Positions 9,942-25,416 of a stretch of DNA of 53,208 nt are shown here, piece by piece. The stretch comes from Curvivirga aplysinae. GTDB lineage: Bacteria; Pseudomonadota; Alphaproteobacteria; UBA8366; Aestuariispiraceae. The notes below the pieces were generated by a model. It was not told the DNA's origin. It made no database searches and was given only the letters and a program-made list of their open reading frames with translations. The stretch is taken from the NCBI RefSeq assembly GCF_009711445.1, contig NZ_SMMC01000208.1:1-53208 (forward strand), written 5' to 3'. Position 1 is the stretch's first letter. Each line of letters starts with the position of its first letter. A program made the translations under genes and the position numbers.

Positions 9942-10439
9942 TTAACCACGGTGATAATCGTCATCATCATCATCGTCATCATGGCGTGCATGTTTTTTAC
10001 GCTTTTTGATCTCGTCCTTGGTCACCTGACCATCGTCATTTCGATCCATGCGGTTAAACATACGATCCAACGGCATCGCAATTTCCTCTAGGGTGATTTG
10101 TGCGTTACCGTCATCATCTAGGAACTGGAAACCATCAACCATGCGATTGCGCATTTGCTCGACCCACATTTTTTCGAACTCTTCCAGGTCGATCATTTTG
10201 TCGCCATTCACATCAAACTGTGTAACTTTCACAACTTGCCATTCTTGCAACTCAACCTTATCAATAGCCCCATCAGAATTGGCATCGATCTCGTCCATAT
10301 TTTTTACAATTGGATGCATGCCATGCATTTTTTTACCATGTCCCCATTTACCACCAGCATAACTGATCCCGGAAATAATCGGTGTAGCAACAACAGCAAC
10401 AGCGGCAGCAGCAACGATAAATTTGGTTGATTTCTTCAT
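9942..10439 (-). CDS. Secreted four-EF-hand protein with poly-Asp tail
   Basis: A 165-residue exported protein. A signal peptide (about 1-28, ending S-Y-A-G-G) is followed by a short His/Lys/Gly segment and four canonical 12-residue EF-hand loops at 52-63, 76-87, 108-119 and 132-143, each with Asp at position 1 and Glu at position 12. The C terminus is a run of eight Asp (153-161 region) flanked by His and Arg. It should bind calcium, and possibly other divalent ions through the His and Asp segments, in the periplasm. The gene is divergent from a response regulator-kinase pair, with tandem repeats in the shared promoter, so it is probably a target of that system. AAGGAAC precedes the ATG. Confidence 0.88.
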   Translation of the reverse strand: MKKSTKFIVAAAAVAVVATPIISGISYAGGKWGHGKKMHGMHPIVKNMDEIDANSDGAIDKVELQEWQVVKVTQFDVNGDKMIDLEEFEKMWVEQMRNRMVDGFQFLDDDGNAQITLEEIAMPLDRMFNRMDRNDDGQVTKDEIKKRKKHARHDDDDDDDDYHRG

Positions 10440-10513
10440 TTCAGGTTCCTTTCGTAAATCCCAGTTTAGTTTTTTTGAACTGGCCTGTTAATTTCTGTCT
10501 CCAGCAATTAAGC

Positions 10514-10600
10514 ATGCAAAACCTGAAATACGATCCCGATTTTGTTAAAAAGGGTCACGAATTGTATCATGCAAAGCCTGTGATACATTTTGATACATTT
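10514..10600. promoter_or_regulatory. Repeat-rich divergent promoter: candidate response-regulator operator
   Basis: TGATACATTT occurs twice in perfect tandem (10581-10590, 10591-10600), and ATTGTATCAT at 10561-10570 is an inverted copy. In addition ATGCAAAACCTG (10514-10525) is repeated as ATGCAAAGCCTG (10569-10580), each followed by a related ATAC element. Ten-base tandem sites on one helix face are how OmpR-family regulators commonly bind. The block lies between the EF-hand gene and the OmpR-type regulator gene, so autoregulation and control of the EF-hand gene are inferred. Confidence 0.55.
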
Positions 10601-10675
10601 TTTTGTTCCAAAAGGGGAAAAGCTTGGTGCATAAAGGGGTTACGAAATACGAAAAACATAAAAAGGTATAACAAT

Positions 10676-11401
10676 ATGACAGATAGCAAACATGTCTTAG
10701 TCGTCGATGACCATCGCGATATTCGCGAACCGTTGGTGCGTTATCTGTCCCAAAACGGTTTTCGTACCAGTGATGCAGAAGATGCAACTACCGCTCGTCA
10801 AATATTAAACGGCAACTCCATAGATTTGGTTGTTTTAGATATCATGATGCCTGGTGAAGATGGCTTATCATTATGTAGACATATCCAAGCTACCAGTGAA
10901 ATACCCGTGATTTTACTAACGGCTATGGTCGATGATACCGACCGTATTATAGGCTTGGAAATGGGCGCGGATGACTATGTCACCAAACCATTTAACCCAC
11001 GTGAATTAATTGCGCGAATCAAAGCAGTTTTACGTCGAACCGAAGCTCTTCCTCCAAAAACGGTACAAGCTGCAGAAGGACCTGAAATATTCCAGTTCGC
11101 GGATTGGAAACTGGACAGTACAAAGCGCGCCTTAATAGATACGAATGATGTCACACATCCCCTAAGCACAGCGGAATATGATTTGCTTTATGTTTTTGTT
11201 ACTCATCCCAACATGGTATTGAGCCGTGATCAATTATTAGACTTGGCACGAGGTAGAGATGCCATTCCATTTGATCGAAGTGTAGACAATCAGATCAGTC
11301 GATTGCGAAAAAAATTAGAGAAAGATCCTAAAAACCCTGAATTACTTACAACAGTTTGGGGCGGTGGATATATGCTCACCTCCAAGGTTGATACATTATG
11401 A
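10676..11401 (+). CDS. OmpR/PhoB family response regulator
   Basis: A 241-residue response regulator. The receiver domain (about 5-118) has the acidic pair D11-D12, phosphoacceptor D55 in L-V-V-L-D-I-M-M-P-G, T82 and K104. A winged-helix DNA-binding domain of the OmpR type fills about 140-238 (S-V-D-N-Q-I-S-R-L-R-K-K-L-E). The frame is open far upstream, but the ATG at 10676 with AAAAGG nine bases before it gives the standard family N terminus. The stop codon overlaps the kinase start (ATGA), so the two are translationally coupled. The partner is the kinase at 11398; targets probably include its own promoter and the EF-hand gene. Confidence 0.93.
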   Translation: MTDSKHVLVVDDHRDIREPLVRYLSQNGFRTSDAEDATTARQILNGNSIDLVVLDIMMPGEDGLSLCRHIQATSEIPVILLTAMVDDTDRIIGLEMGADDYVTKPFNPRELIARIKAVLRRTEALPPKTVQAAEGPEIFQFADWKLDSTKRALIDTNDVTHPLSTAEYDLLYVFVTHPNMVLSRDQLLDLARGRDAIPFDRSVDNQISRLRKKLEKDPKNPELLTTVWGGGYMLTSKVDTL

Positions 11402-12867
11402 GGAAATTCATCCCTAAAAGTCTCTCGGGACAGATGATCATCCTAACCTTGATTGCAATTGTTTCTGCGCAGTTAATCGGTATTAGTATTTTTGCGGATG
11501 AAAGACGCGATGCCTTACGTGCGGCATCCAATCAACAAGTTTTGGTCCATACGGCATCAGTTGTAAAACTTTTATCTTTTGCCCCTAAATCACAAAGAGA
11601 TAATATCATCAAGGCCTCCACAACTGACGAATTCCAGCTCAGCTTATCGAAACGCCCAAAAATAAAACGCCGTTTCAAAAAAGACTGGGAAGCTGACATG
11701 CGTTTCATTCTTGCAATGATGGTTGATGATTATGCAGATGAAATCCATTTACGTACTAAACGCGATCGGCGCGAATGGTTGCAATGGCGGCATGACAATC
11801 ATGACATGCACGAAAATCGCCGCGAATGGTTTAAAAAGTGGGGCGATGATCATCATATGCGATATGAAGACGAAGATGAGCTAGAAGAAGAAATGGAAGA
11901 ACATCTTCCCGCTCCCCCTACACTTGATCGATTACGTGAAAATTTAAACATTTCAGTTAAACTCAAAGATGGCACATGGTTAAATGTGAAGAGTTATTCT
12001 GTGCCGGGTTCTCCGCTATGGGCACTTCCTTCCTTTATTGCCACATTCATAAGTGCGGCAGCTATTATTCTTATAGTTATTCTGATGATGCGACGTGTTA
12101 CCAAACCTGTAAAAGCCTTAACCAATGCAGCTGAAAAATTTGGACGTGGGGAACATGTCGACCCTTTAGCATCAATTGGCCCTTCAGATATACGCGCTGC
12201 AAGCCAAGCCTTCAATCAAATGCAAGAAAGATTGGATCGTTTTGTTAGAGATAGAACACGCATGTTGGCAGCCATATCACATGATTTACGAACCCCAATC
12301 ACCGCCTTACGTATTCAAGCTGAATTCATTGGGGATGAAGAATTACGTGAGAAAATCTTATCTATCCTTATCGAAATGCAGCGTATGACCGAAGCGACTT
12401 TGTCCTTTGCAAAACAAGATGCATTAAAGGAAGAGAGTGAAGAGACAAATCTTCATGCCCTATTGGAAAGTATCAGTCATGATTATCAAGACATGGGCAA
12501 AGAAGTGACTTTTGAAGGTGAAGAAAACATCATTCAAAACTGTCGTCCGACATCACTAAAACGCGCATTACGTAATTTAGTCGATAACGCATTAAAATAT
12601 GGAGAGGCCGCCAATATAACTTTGGAAACGAGTAAATCAGAAACATTCATCAAAATTTCTGATCAAGGCCCTGGTATTCCAGAAAATCTTTTAGAGCAAA
12701 TTTTCGAACCATTTGTTAGACTAGATGAAGCACGTAATACAGAAAGTGGCAGTGTCGGTCTAGGACTTGCGATCGCCCGATCCATAGTAAATGCACATGG
12801 CGGTAAAATTTTAGCAGAAAATATCGATCCTAATGGGTTAAGAATCACCATCCGCCTCCCACGTTAA
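11398..12867 (+). CDS. Sensor histidine kinase with charged, His-rich periplasmic domain
   Basis: A 489-residue membrane kinase. Transmembrane segments lie at about 14-32 and 211-232, enclosing a periplasmic domain of about 175 residues. Next come HAMP (about 232-285), a HisKA domain with H295 in I-S-H-D-L-R-T-P, and a HATPase domain with N box (L-V-D-N-A-L-K-Y-G), G1 (D-Q-G-P-G-I-P) and G2 (V-G-L-G-L-A-I-A). The periplasmic stretch 120-170 is unusually rich in Arg, Asp, Glu, His and Trp, including clusters such as H-D-N-H-D-M-H and D-D-H-H, which look able to bind a metal or other cation. With the divergent EF-hand gene, this suggests a calcium or metal sensing system; that is inference. Confidence 0.92.
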   Translation: MRKFIPKSLSGQMIILTLIAIVSAQLIGISIFADERRDALRAASNQQVLVHTASVVKLLSFAPKSQRDNIIKASTTDEFQLSLSKRPKIKRRFKKDWEADMRFILAMMVDDYADEIHLRTKRDRREWLQWRHDNHDMHENRREWFKKWGDDHHMRYEDEDELEEEMEEHLPAPPTLDRLRENLNISVKLKDGTWLNVKSYSVPGSPLWALPSFIATFISAAAIILIVILMMRRVTKPVKALTNAAEKFGRGEHVDPLASIGPSDIRAASQAFNQMQERLDRFVRDRTRMLAAISHDLRTPITALRIQAEFIGDEELREKILSILIEMQRMTEATLSFAKQDALKEESEETNLHALLESISHDYQDMGKEVTFEGEENIIQNCRPTSLKRALRNLVDNALKYGEAANITLETSKSETFIKISDQGPGIPENLLEQIFEPFVRLDEARNTESGSVGLGLAIARSIVNAHGGKILAENIDPNGLRITIRLPR

Positions 12868-12931: not shown

Positions 12932-13408
12932 ATGACCCAATCGTTAAGATACACGCTGGTTATTTTTGTTTTGGCAGCCATCTTCACAAGCCTAAATGCC
13001 AAAGCGCAAGAGCTCATTTTTCCCAATCCTGACTTGAGCCCGCGACAAGTTGTTTCCATACAGCTCAAAGCACTTGCCGATGTAGGAAATGAAGGAAGTA
13101 GCGGATTTCTTCAAACATGGATATTTGCCCATCCGAGGAACAAAGCTGTTACAGGTCCAATAGAAAGATTTGCTTTGATGTTACAAAGCCCAGATTACGT
13201 CGTGCTGTTAGCGGCTAATAAACACAAGATAGTGGATGTATATCAAAAAGATAATTCTGCCTTCCTTTTTGTAGACATCTTAAATCAAAGAGACGAATTG
13301 GTCGCTGTTTTCAGATGGGAGTTAGCTCAGGCGCGCTTGGAAGATAATTCACTTGTCTGGATGACAACAAATGTAAGGCGACTTCTAAAACCTGATGATC
13401 TAACCTAA
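12932..13408 (+). CDS. DUF4864 domain-containing exported protein
   Basis: A 158-residue protein with a signal peptide (about 1-25, ending N-A-K-A-Q-E) and a DUF4864 domain (about 33-150). Family hallmarks recalled from alphaproteobacterial members are visible: Q-V-V-S-I-Q-L-K-A-L near the start, F-A-H-P-R-N-K-A-V-T-G-P and R-F-A-L-M. Function is unknown. It follows the kinase gene by 64 bases on the same strand and has a very strong ribosome site (GGGAGGAGG), so it may belong to the two-component operon. A terminator follows at 13413. Confidence 0.75.
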   Translation: MTQSLRYTLVIFVLAAIFTSLNAKAQELIFPNPDLSPRQVVSIQLKALADVGNEGSSGFLQTWIFAHPRNKAVTGPIERFALMLQSPDYVVLLAANKHKIVDVYQKDNSAFLFVDILNQRDELVAVFRWELAQARLEDNSLVWMTTNVRRLLKPDDLT

Positions 13409-24225: not shown

Positions 24226-25416
24226 ATGAAACTCAGCGATATTAAAGTTTATACCGTTGCCACCCCTGCGCCACATTTTGGCGGACGCTATTGGATCTTT
24301 GTCAAGCTCACTACGGCCTGCGGCATAGATGGAATCGGCGAAGTATATTCCCCACCTTTCCATCCAGATGTAGTTGAAAAGATGATCGAAGACGTCTTTG
24401 AGCGAAATGTGAAAGGGAATGCACCTTCTGAAATTGAAAAAATGTATCGCAATGTATATTCGACAGGATATTCCCAGCGCCCTGATCCAACTTTGATGAG
24501 TATCTTCAGTGGCATCGAAACAGCTTGTTGGGATATTCAAGGCAAAGCACTAAATCGCCCTGTTTATGACTTACTAGGTGGGAAAGTACGTGATCGTTTA
24601 CGTAGTTATACATATTTATATCCAAAGCCAGAAGATAAAACAAATGTCTATGCAGATCCCGATTTAGCCGCTGAACGCGCCGCCGACTATGTCGCGCAAG
24701 GCTTTACAGGAATTAAATTTGATCCTACTGGCCCCTATACTGCCTTTGATGGACGCTTCATTAATCTAGAAGATATGGATCGTGCAGAAACCTTCTGTCG
24801 TAAAATACGTGAGGCAGTTGGTAGCAAAGCCGATTTACTATTTGGCACACATGGCCAGATGACACCGGCAAGTGCAATCCGCTTGGCGCAACGTCTTGAG
24901 CAATATGAACCACTTTGGTTTGAAGAACCAACCCCACCAGACATGCCAGAAGAAATGGCCTTGGTTGCACGTGGTACAAAAATACCAGTGTCTACGGGTG
25001 AGCGTCTTGTCTCTAAATACGAATTCTCTCGGGTACTTCAAAATCGTTCCGCATCCATCTTGCAATTTGCAGTTGGGCGTGTAGGTGGTATTTGGGAAGC
25101 AAAGAAAATCGCTGGCATGGCAGAAACATTTTATGCTCAAATTGCTCCACATCTATATTGTGGCCCTGTTGAGGAAGCAGCCAACATACATCTATGCCTG
25201 TCTACACCAAACTTCCTAATTCAGGAAAGCATCCAAGATATGAGAAGCTTCCACGGGGATGTATTGAAAACACCAATTAAATGGGAAGAAGGTTATCTAT
25301 ACGCACATGATGCGCCGGGGCTTGGCATTGAATTAAATGAGGATGTTATTGCCGCGAACCCATATACGGATAGCGATCTACATTTAGAATTCCACCCATA
25401 TAATTTTGACTTTTAA
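24226..25416 (+). CDS. Mandelate racemase/muconate lactonizing family protein with altered active site
   Basis: A 396-residue enolase-superfamily protein, closest in style to the galactonate dehydratase group. Present are K164 (G-I-K-F-D-P), Glu ligands in F-E-E-P (233-234) and S-T-G-E-R-L (E259), and H309 (A-P-H-L-Y-C-G-P). Two normally key acidic residues are changed: the first metal ligand Asp is Gly207 in F-G-T-H-G-Q, and the Asp of the His-Asp dyad is Ala282 in L-Q-F-A-V-G-R-V-G-G. I recall the same substitutions in other alphaproteobacterial homologs, so this is likely a real subfamily with different chemistry and not decay. The convergent neighbour is the DddP-like gene; a LysR gene lies upstream. 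Confidence 0.82.
   Translation: MKLSDIKVYTVATPAPHFGGRYWIFVKLTTACGIDGIGEVYSPPFHPDVVEKMIEDVFERNVKGNAPSEIEKMYRNVYSTGYSQRPDPTLMSIFSGIETACWDIQGKALNRPVYDLLGGKVRDRLRSYTYLYPKPEDKTNVYADPDLAAERAADYVAQGFTGIKFDPTGPYTAFDGRFINLEDMDRAETFCRKIREAVGSKADLLFGTHGQMTPASAIRLAQRLEQYEPLWFEEPTPPDMPEEMALVARGTKIPVSTGERLVSKYEFSRVLQNRSASILQFAVGRVGGIWEAKKIAGMAETFYAQIAPHLYCGPVEEAANIHLCLSTPNFLIQESIQDMRSFHGDVLKTPIKWEEGYLYAHDAPGLGIELNEDVIAANPYTDSDLHLEFHPYNFDF

Follow-up and report, generated by a model that had tools for sequence, protein, structure and literature searches.

The means by which bacteria perceive extracellular calcium are not well established. In the case of the sensor kinase BqsS (CarS), it has been suggested that the effects of Ca2+ may come from another protein, encoded in the operon or elsewhere (PMC12666569), and the regulation of efhP by Ca2+ and Fe in Pseudomonas aeruginosa is reported to require CarSR (PMC11559002). 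DbfQ is described as binding the sensor domain of DbfS directly, with a dissociation constant of 30 nM, and DbfQRS-like PepSY modules are described as widespread (PMC12714742). CpxP, whose gene is divergent, is considered an inhibitor of CpxA that acts through direct contact (PMC6737893). The locus analysed here, from the alphaproteobacterium Curvivirga aplysinae, has a gene for a secreted four-EF-hand protein back to back with the genes for an OmpR-family response regulator and an EnvZ-like sensor histidine kinase. It lies in a contig of 53,208 nucleotides (NZ_SMMC01000208.1, contig C7 of a host assembly of 3.56 Mb in 216 contigs, 98.8% complete), and this whole stretch is referred to below as the window. 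The position divergent from the regulator and kinase genes, filled in the window by the EF-hand gene, is referred to as the slot.

The EF-hand, regulator and kinase genes form a conserved module across many alphaproteobacteria. When the search was started from the kinase, a match at E <= 1e-60 was found in 23 of the 43 genomes of the host's order, at 27 places; leaving aside the window itself, 20 of the remaining 26 were extended so that the slot could be read. The slot of these 20 holds an EF-hand gene in 11 cases, in addition to the window (the EF-hand gene of L074 shows two loops before the contig stops), a PepSY-like gene in three (L062, L065 and L079), an LTXXQ gene in two (L080 and L081, with Pfam run on L081), and in one case each an RND efflux operon recognised by eye (L067), a MipA gene (L068) and an apparent EF relic (L075); at L077 the sequence stops before the slot. 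No EF-hand open reading frame (ORF) was seen in the flanks, of 1.5 kb or less, at the other six places (L037, L048 and L052-L055). The L075 element (L075:6200-6436, minus strand) is a short ORF in which a single EF-like loop and an acidic tail survive; it is probably the remnant of a truncated EF-hand gene. Across the class, where four candidates were scored per genome, the kinase profile matched at E <= 1e-110 in 43 of 385 genomes, at 50 places. EF-hand genes occupy 16 of these slots (at L150 as the second divergent gene), LTXXQ genes 10, PepSY-like genes 6 (by eye), MipA genes 2 and a cytochrome c gene 1, and two places leave no room for a slot gene. Among the 14 places that score at least 540 bits, the slot is EF-hand in 10, PepSY-like in two, cytochrome c in one and without such a gene in one.

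The reverse search, from the EF-hand protein, gave the same picture. In a scan of named genomes by EF alone, in which 80 of 160 relatives were kept, 57 of the 80 EF loci had a family kinase above 300 bits; 55 of them were flagged as divergent by script, and the different flag of the other two (L206 and L265) we put down to over-long ORFs. A kinase is missing at the other 23, seven of which have less than 2.3 kb upstream. The EF-only scan of the 385 class genomes gave 72 at E <= 1e-18, and in 18 of the best 21 (E <= 2.6e-30) the kinase stands beside the EF-hand gene, 16 by shared coordinates and two (G120 and G338) after retrieval; in one of the 18, G404, the EF-hand gene is one gene away. From the 51 other genomes, with weaker EF matches, none of 10 retrieved loci lies beside the kinase (at L281 there is no upstream room; the kinase matches of L281 and L283 are only distant and weak). 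Genera with the module include Pelagibius, Roseibium, Stappia, Hoeflea and Rhodovulum. A preliminary description of this DNA had taken the EF-hand and kinase genes as one set and had called for a check of their co-occurrence. Divergent adjacency turned out to be conserved in both search directions, with a conserved box between the genes, which bears out that grouping; nothing was found to support a chance neighbourhood of unrelated genes, an explanation that we consider extremely improbable.

The box is a tandem direct repeat with a 10-bp period, consensus GnnACAnTTTGwTACAnTTT, usually 50-125 bp upstream of the regulator. The 21-bp matrix that describes it was trained on the intergenic regions of 63 of 71 loci, the other eight having yielded no regulator by pattern. 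With up to three mismatches allowed, TGATACATTTTGATACATTTT has one site in the window, an exact one, where 0.01 is expected in shuffles. Among 28 loci kept out of the training, which include close relatives of loci in it, the box reached at least 15 bits in 26, and 27 scored above all 20 of their own dinucleotide shuffles (shuffle mean -0.6 bits); the low scorers were L206 and L230. The regulator pattern missed 22 of the 57 loci of the EF scan, of which 19, mostly Rhodobacterales, were scored by a second method and L197, L265 and L267 remained unscored. The 10-bp repeat is retained in 17 of these 19, with GCGACA as the second half-site, and only four reach 15 bits with the box matrix. A box also stands before systems with LTXXQ and PepSY-like slot genes (at least 15 bits in 5 of 7 PepSY-like training loci) and scores low in several kinases without a slot gene, which suggests that it goes with the regulator and not with any single slot gene. 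Near-matches with no more than three mismatches number 14 in the host genome, two of them overlapping, against six for the reversed control; one, at 24439-24458 of the window, is inside a coding region. A second element, TGTCGCAAAAGTTTGTC, lies near the EF-hand gene and was defined by eye on the same loci in which it was counted; at least 13 of its 17 letters are found in 15 of 27 EF loci (for example L114, L115, L078 and L118), two of six PepSY-like loci and none of seven LTXXQ loci.

In relatives, the EF-hand gene is replaced in the same divergent slot by genes for other periplasmic proteins. A tree of the catalytic part of the kinase was made by a quick method with 115 of 154 loci offered; those left off had no kinase above 300 bits, had no H-box match or were near-copies, and the H-box pattern used for the tree, itself a widened one, lost eight loci (L080, L081, L137, L139, L141, L156, L157 and L211). 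By slot, the 115 rows comprise 76 EF, seven LTXXQ, six PepSY-like, three MipA, two cytochrome c, one RND, one other and one EF relic, with 15 rows lacking a recognised slot gene and three lacking room for one. Two samples supplied the EF loci, and because one of these was chosen by EF, the EF share is inflated; it is the slot changes on the tree, not this share, that carry the weight. The best tree has eight switches between EF and non-EF (10 when the tool counts changes of the EF label only), and its starred branches force at least three changes of the EF label. The PepSY-like pair L062/L065 is surrounded by EF rows, and the support of its branches is mixed.

Among the replacement proteins, LTXXQ is above the Pfam cut-off in all nine candidates run (at class level, eight of 10 were run and all pass). 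The PepSY-like proteins of L062, L065, L079, L123, L137 and L153 miss the PepSY cut-off of Pfam, and a PDB sequence search did not reach a PepSY assignment for the PepSY-like slot proteins. A model of the L065 protein, built from four sequences, has a mean predicted local distance difference test (pLDDT) score of 62.6, about 90 over the domain. Its nearest structure is YpeB-C, with Z 6.3 and a root-mean-square deviation (rmsd) of 3.9 over 74 aligned residues, although unrelated rows tie with it; the comparison with UipA gave Z 4.6 and rmsd 2.6 with 52 aligned, and Foldseek gave no significant match. The fold comparison is no more than suggestive of a PepSY-like identity.

Some kinase relatives have other neighbours. 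Genome G004 has two family kinases, one with an EF-hand gene (L063) and one with a divergent RND efflux operon (L067), the sensor of the latter being different and Cys-containing. The rhizobial-type relatives L056, L057, L058, L060 and L124 lie near cytochrome c, soxA, xanthine dehydrogenase or RND genes, and no EF-hand protein is encoded in the stretches of the rhizobial plasmid relatives L056, L057, L058, L060 and L061. The box is good in L060 and L061 and weak (13.8 bits) in L059, a locus whose label, Aeromonas caviae, places it outside the alphaproteobacteria and whose divergent gene encodes a small His/Met-containing secreted protein that reaches no Pfam family.

We favour, with moderate confidence, a reading in which the three genes act as one module: the regulator would control the EF-hand gene, and the EF-hand protein would be a periplasmic cation-binding output and probably also a feedback accessory of the kinase. 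The periplasmic signal sensed by the kinase would be of envelope or cation type; calcium, some other divalent cation and damage to the envelope in general are all candidates. The kinase would in turn phosphorylate the OmpR-type regulator. The phosphorylated regulator would then bind the direct repeat and act on both its own operon and the divergent EF-hand gene. The exported EF-hand protein may bind Ca2+ or a similar cation and damp or tune the kinase, as DbfQ does for DbfS and as CpxP presumably does for CpxA, the slot resembling by analogy those systems in which an accessory protein restrains the kinase. Box binding, cation binding, kinase contact, the sign of the feedback and the signal itself are steps that we infer.

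Several observations weigh against this reading. A recognised slot gene is missing at 13 of the 50 class kinase places, a kinase is missing at 16 of the 80 named-genome EF loci despite room upstream, and three of the 21 best EF genomes (G201, G071 and G144) have no adjacent kinase. In the LTXXQ training loci the box is weaker, with 8 of 12 reaching at least 15 bits, several kinases that lack a slot gene have a poor one, and TGTCGCAAAAGTTTGTC is absent from the window. MipA-type slot proteins have other roles, so that replacement in the slot does not prove contact with the kinase.

One alternative is that the EF-hand protein is an output and nothing else: produced upon kinase activity, it would buffer cations in the periplasm or stabilise the envelope, without feedback. 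The box and the adjacency argue for co-regulation only, and the slot can also hold MipA (by Pfam) or an RND efflux operon (by eye), with cytochrome b561 following the EF-hand gene in three loci; what speaks for a closer tie to the kinase is the repeated swap to small LTXXQ and PepSY-like proteins, classes described as having kinase-modulating members (PMC12714742, PMC6737893). We regard an output without feedback as possible, if on the unlikely side. Another proposal goes further than the favoured one: the EF-hand protein could be a plug-in sensor subunit whose cation-loaded form binds the periplasmic domain of the kinase, and lineages could retune one kinase and box to new signals by swapping the divergent gene among EF-hand, PepSY-like and LTXXQ types, with no need to alter the kinase. 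This we hold only tentatively and think rather doubtful.

The preliminary description drew attention to a kinase periplasmic domain rich in Asp, Glu, His and Arg and suggested that the set may sense and buffer calcium or a transition metal. In a reading along these lines, the charged stretch of this domain would itself bind the cation in the manner of PhoQ or BqsS while the EF-hand protein buffers the same ion. The stretch is indeed present at residues 117-169, and in its densest 20 residues 16 are D, E, H, R or K. By eye, residues 159-168 show an ExxE spacing, a type of motif discussed for BqsS (PMC12666569). A strong stretch, taken as at least 8 D or H within 20 residues, was found in 28 of 76 EF-linked kinases, two of six PepSY-like-linked and two of seven LTXXQ-linked kinases, in none of 15 kinases without a recognised slot gene and in one of three without room for a slot. 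The window kinase itself, with a maximum of seven, is below this threshold. The LTXXQ-linked kinases L139 and L141, both outside the counted set, have D/H runs by eye. EF-linked kinases are richer in charged residues (p = 4e-7; for D/H alone p = 0.027) in a comparison that ignores relatedness and from which 14 loci dropped out because the H-box pattern was too narrow, and a tree-based pair test of charge against EF linkage had two usable pairs only and hence no power. The stretch differs widely in length and content between kinase relatives. Because of this variability, it is ruled out as the defining trait of the module, and the view of it as the characteristic sensor is not supported.

The preliminary description had also seen no standard sensing domain in this kinase, which is correct as far as Pfam goes, no Pfam model covering residues 33-210. 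An AlphaFold2 model (30 sequences, mean pLDDT 83) shows a first transmembrane segment, an alpha/beta periplasmic domain and a second transmembrane segment. Within it, the charged stretch forms a helix that ends near residue 149 (pLDDT about 70), and from there to about residue 176 there is no regular structure (pLDDT about 51-53). In VIA-align, the sensor domain gave Z 7.0 (rmsd 6.5, 102 aligned) with RisS (3te8) and Z 6.2 (rmsd 4.7, 99 aligned) with ParS (8ju7), and a weak Z 4.1 (rmsd 3.8, 89 aligned) with CpxA (8uk7), all in the range of common arrangements; Foldseek found no significant match (best E 0.32). By its modelled fold, the domain may be weakly PDC/CACHE-like. Given the variable stretch and the low-confidence, unstructured model of its C-terminal part, we judge it quite unlikely that the charged stretch is itself the cation site.

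If the EF-hand protein binds a cation, as the favoured reading has it, the question is which one. The host genome encodes one protein of this EF family (EF profile, E <= 0.001). The family is marked by the link between the second and third EF-hands, W..xMRxRMVDxFQxLDxDG, kept in most rows of the alignment, and by a rigid 12-20-12 loop spacing, the three gaps being found by motif search in 87, 84 and 69 of 89 proteins, a set in which some genomes are counted twice. Acidic tails recur in several relatives. The loops hold the canonical oxygen-ligand pattern (D1, E/D12), a pattern that favours Ca2+-like ions and that speaks against a module for transition metals or redox stress. Such a module is nevertheless kept in play by His/Met-rich N-termini (by eye, many EF, PepSY-like and LTXXQ slot proteins have His/Met/Gly-rich segments after the signal peptide) and by a link to cytochrome b561. 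In L113, L114 (both of one genus) and L116 the EF-hand gene is directly followed by a b561 gene, as is the LTXXQ gene in L125, and the host b561 gene (L172:3586-4110, minus strand) has three tandem 10-bp half-sites upstream (C210:14706-14735, in L172). Besides the window box, this is the sole site in the host genome that departs from the degenerate box consensus by at most one mismatch; the reversed control pattern gave one match. The b561 gene was found at eight places in the host's order, with the upstream region scored in three, and the box is present at the host copy only; since L183 and L186 lack it, membership of b561 in the regulon rests on the host site and the four neighbouring loci. 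A transition-metal or redox role strikes us as improbable, though worth keeping in view. As a separate observation, the slot proteins of L245, L247, L249, L253, L257 and L268, from Stappia, Roseibium (one named Labrenzia) and Hoeflea, have six EF-type loops by motif search, not four.

The features of the window locus are listed below. The ORFs and Pfam agree with the preliminary account of a secreted four-EF-hand protein with poly-Asp, divergent from regulator and kinase. The EF-hand protein has a signal peptide by eye and EF-hand_1, EF-hand_5, EF-hand_6 and EF-hand_7 above the Pfam cut-off; Pfam shows EF-hands only and no LTXXQ match. Response_reg and Trans_reg_C in the regulator, and HAMP, HisKA and HATPase_c in the kinase, are likewise above cut-off, so that the pair has the receiver, winged helix, HAMP, HisKA and HATPase domains of the OmpR/EnvZ-type class. 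Both proteins miss the NCBIfam equivalog cut-offs, the kinase with 203.8 bits for EnvZ (cut-off 415) and 176.7 for CpxA (486), and the regulator with 262.2 for OmpR (331). A longer regulator ORF from 10427 is an upstream extension of the gene that starts at the listed ATG, and the regulator and kinase ORFs overlap by 4 bases. Directly 3' of the kinase, at 12932-13408 (plus strand), a small secreted protein is encoded that has no Pfam or NCBIfam match and that may resemble DUF4864.

Features of the EF-hand/regulator/kinase locus, in window coordinates
Feature	Coordinates	Strand	Basis
Secreted four-EF-hand protein, 165 aa (divergent slot gene)	9942..10439	-	ORF, Pfam
Run of eight Asp near the C-terminus, residues 154-161, followed by YHRG	9957..9980	-	translation
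EF loop 4, DRNDDGQVTKDE, residues 132-143	10011..10046	-	loop motif search
EF loop 3, DDDGNAQITLEE, residues 108-119	10083..10118	-	loop motif search
EF loop 2, DVNGDKMIDLEE, residues 76-87	10179..10214	-	loop motif search
EF loop 1, DANSDGAIDKVE, residues 52-63	10251..10286	-	loop motif search
10-bp tandem direct repeat, probable response-regulator box, EF/regulator intergenic region	10581..10601	+	matrix, shuffles
OmpR-family response regulator, 241 aa, start ATG 10676	10676..11401	+	Pfam, NCBIfam
EnvZ-like sensor histidine kinase, 489 aa, His295 in SHDLRTP	11398..12867	+	Pfam, NCBIfam
Charged D/E/H/R stretch in the kinase periplasmic domain, residues 117-169	11746..11904	+	translation, model

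The conserved EF-hand protein beside a kinase, in named genera, makes the idea that calcium acts through another protein directly testable, and the exchange of the slot gene provides, from nature, a set of different accessories combined with a single kinase lineage. The literature matches listed, mostly titles and the starts of abstracts, included no account of an EF-hand gene divergent from such a kinase, although one may exist elsewhere; the term "EF-hand" is absent from the main text of the DbfQRS article (PMC12714742).

As far as loops are concerned, the window protein is like lanmodulin in having four EF-hands with 12-residue gaps within each pair (PMC11845868). The spacing described for lanmodulin is 12-13 residues between adjacent EF-hands (PMC11845868); in the window protein gaps 1 and 3 are 12 and gap 2 is 20. 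The protein scores 16.8 bits against the NCBIfam LanM cut-off of 135. The Pro described at EF position 2 of lanmodulin (PMC11845868) is found in one of 363 family loops and in none of the four window loops, and a lanthanide reading is not favoured. The pyrroloquinoline quinone (PQQ) alcohol dehydrogenase model TIGR03075 has no match above cut-off in the host genome, and one below. CarSR/BqsSR, taken with EfhP, compares with the window in that a two-component system tied to cations goes with an EF-hand protein predicted to be periplasmic (PMC12666569, PMC11559002). However, in bqsPQRS the kinase genes are described as preceded by two PepSY genes (PMC12714742, PMC12666569) where the window has a divergent EF-hand gene, EfhP is described with two EF-hands (PMC9132961) rather than four, and efhP (PA4107), judged from locus numbers, is not near bqsPQRS (PA2656-PA2659).

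The periplasmic accessories of other two-component systems are closer in arrangement. In DbfQRS of Vibrio cholerae, as in the window, a small periplasmic protein is encoded beside the regulator and kinase, and some DbfQRS-like modules are reported on opposite strands (PMC12714742); PepSY-like proteins occur within the kinase family of the window itself. The differences are that the accessory there is a PepSY protein and that dbfQ is predicted to be co-transcribed with dbfRS (PMC12714742), whereas the window gene is divergent and encodes an EF-hand protein. CpxP with CpxRA and ZraP with ZraSR are likewise periplasmic accessories of two-component systems (PMC6737893, PMC7657598), ZraSR differing in that ZraR is described as sigma-54 dependent (PMC6737893, PMC7657598). 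In CpxPRA the accessory gene is also divergent from the regulator-kinase operon, and LTXXQ (CpxP/Spy family) proteins occupy the slot in relatives, but the window protein has no LTXXQ and the window kinase is below the CpxA cut-off. An accessory protein with a two-component system is thus of a known kind, and the window differs from the described examples by its EF-hand accessory.

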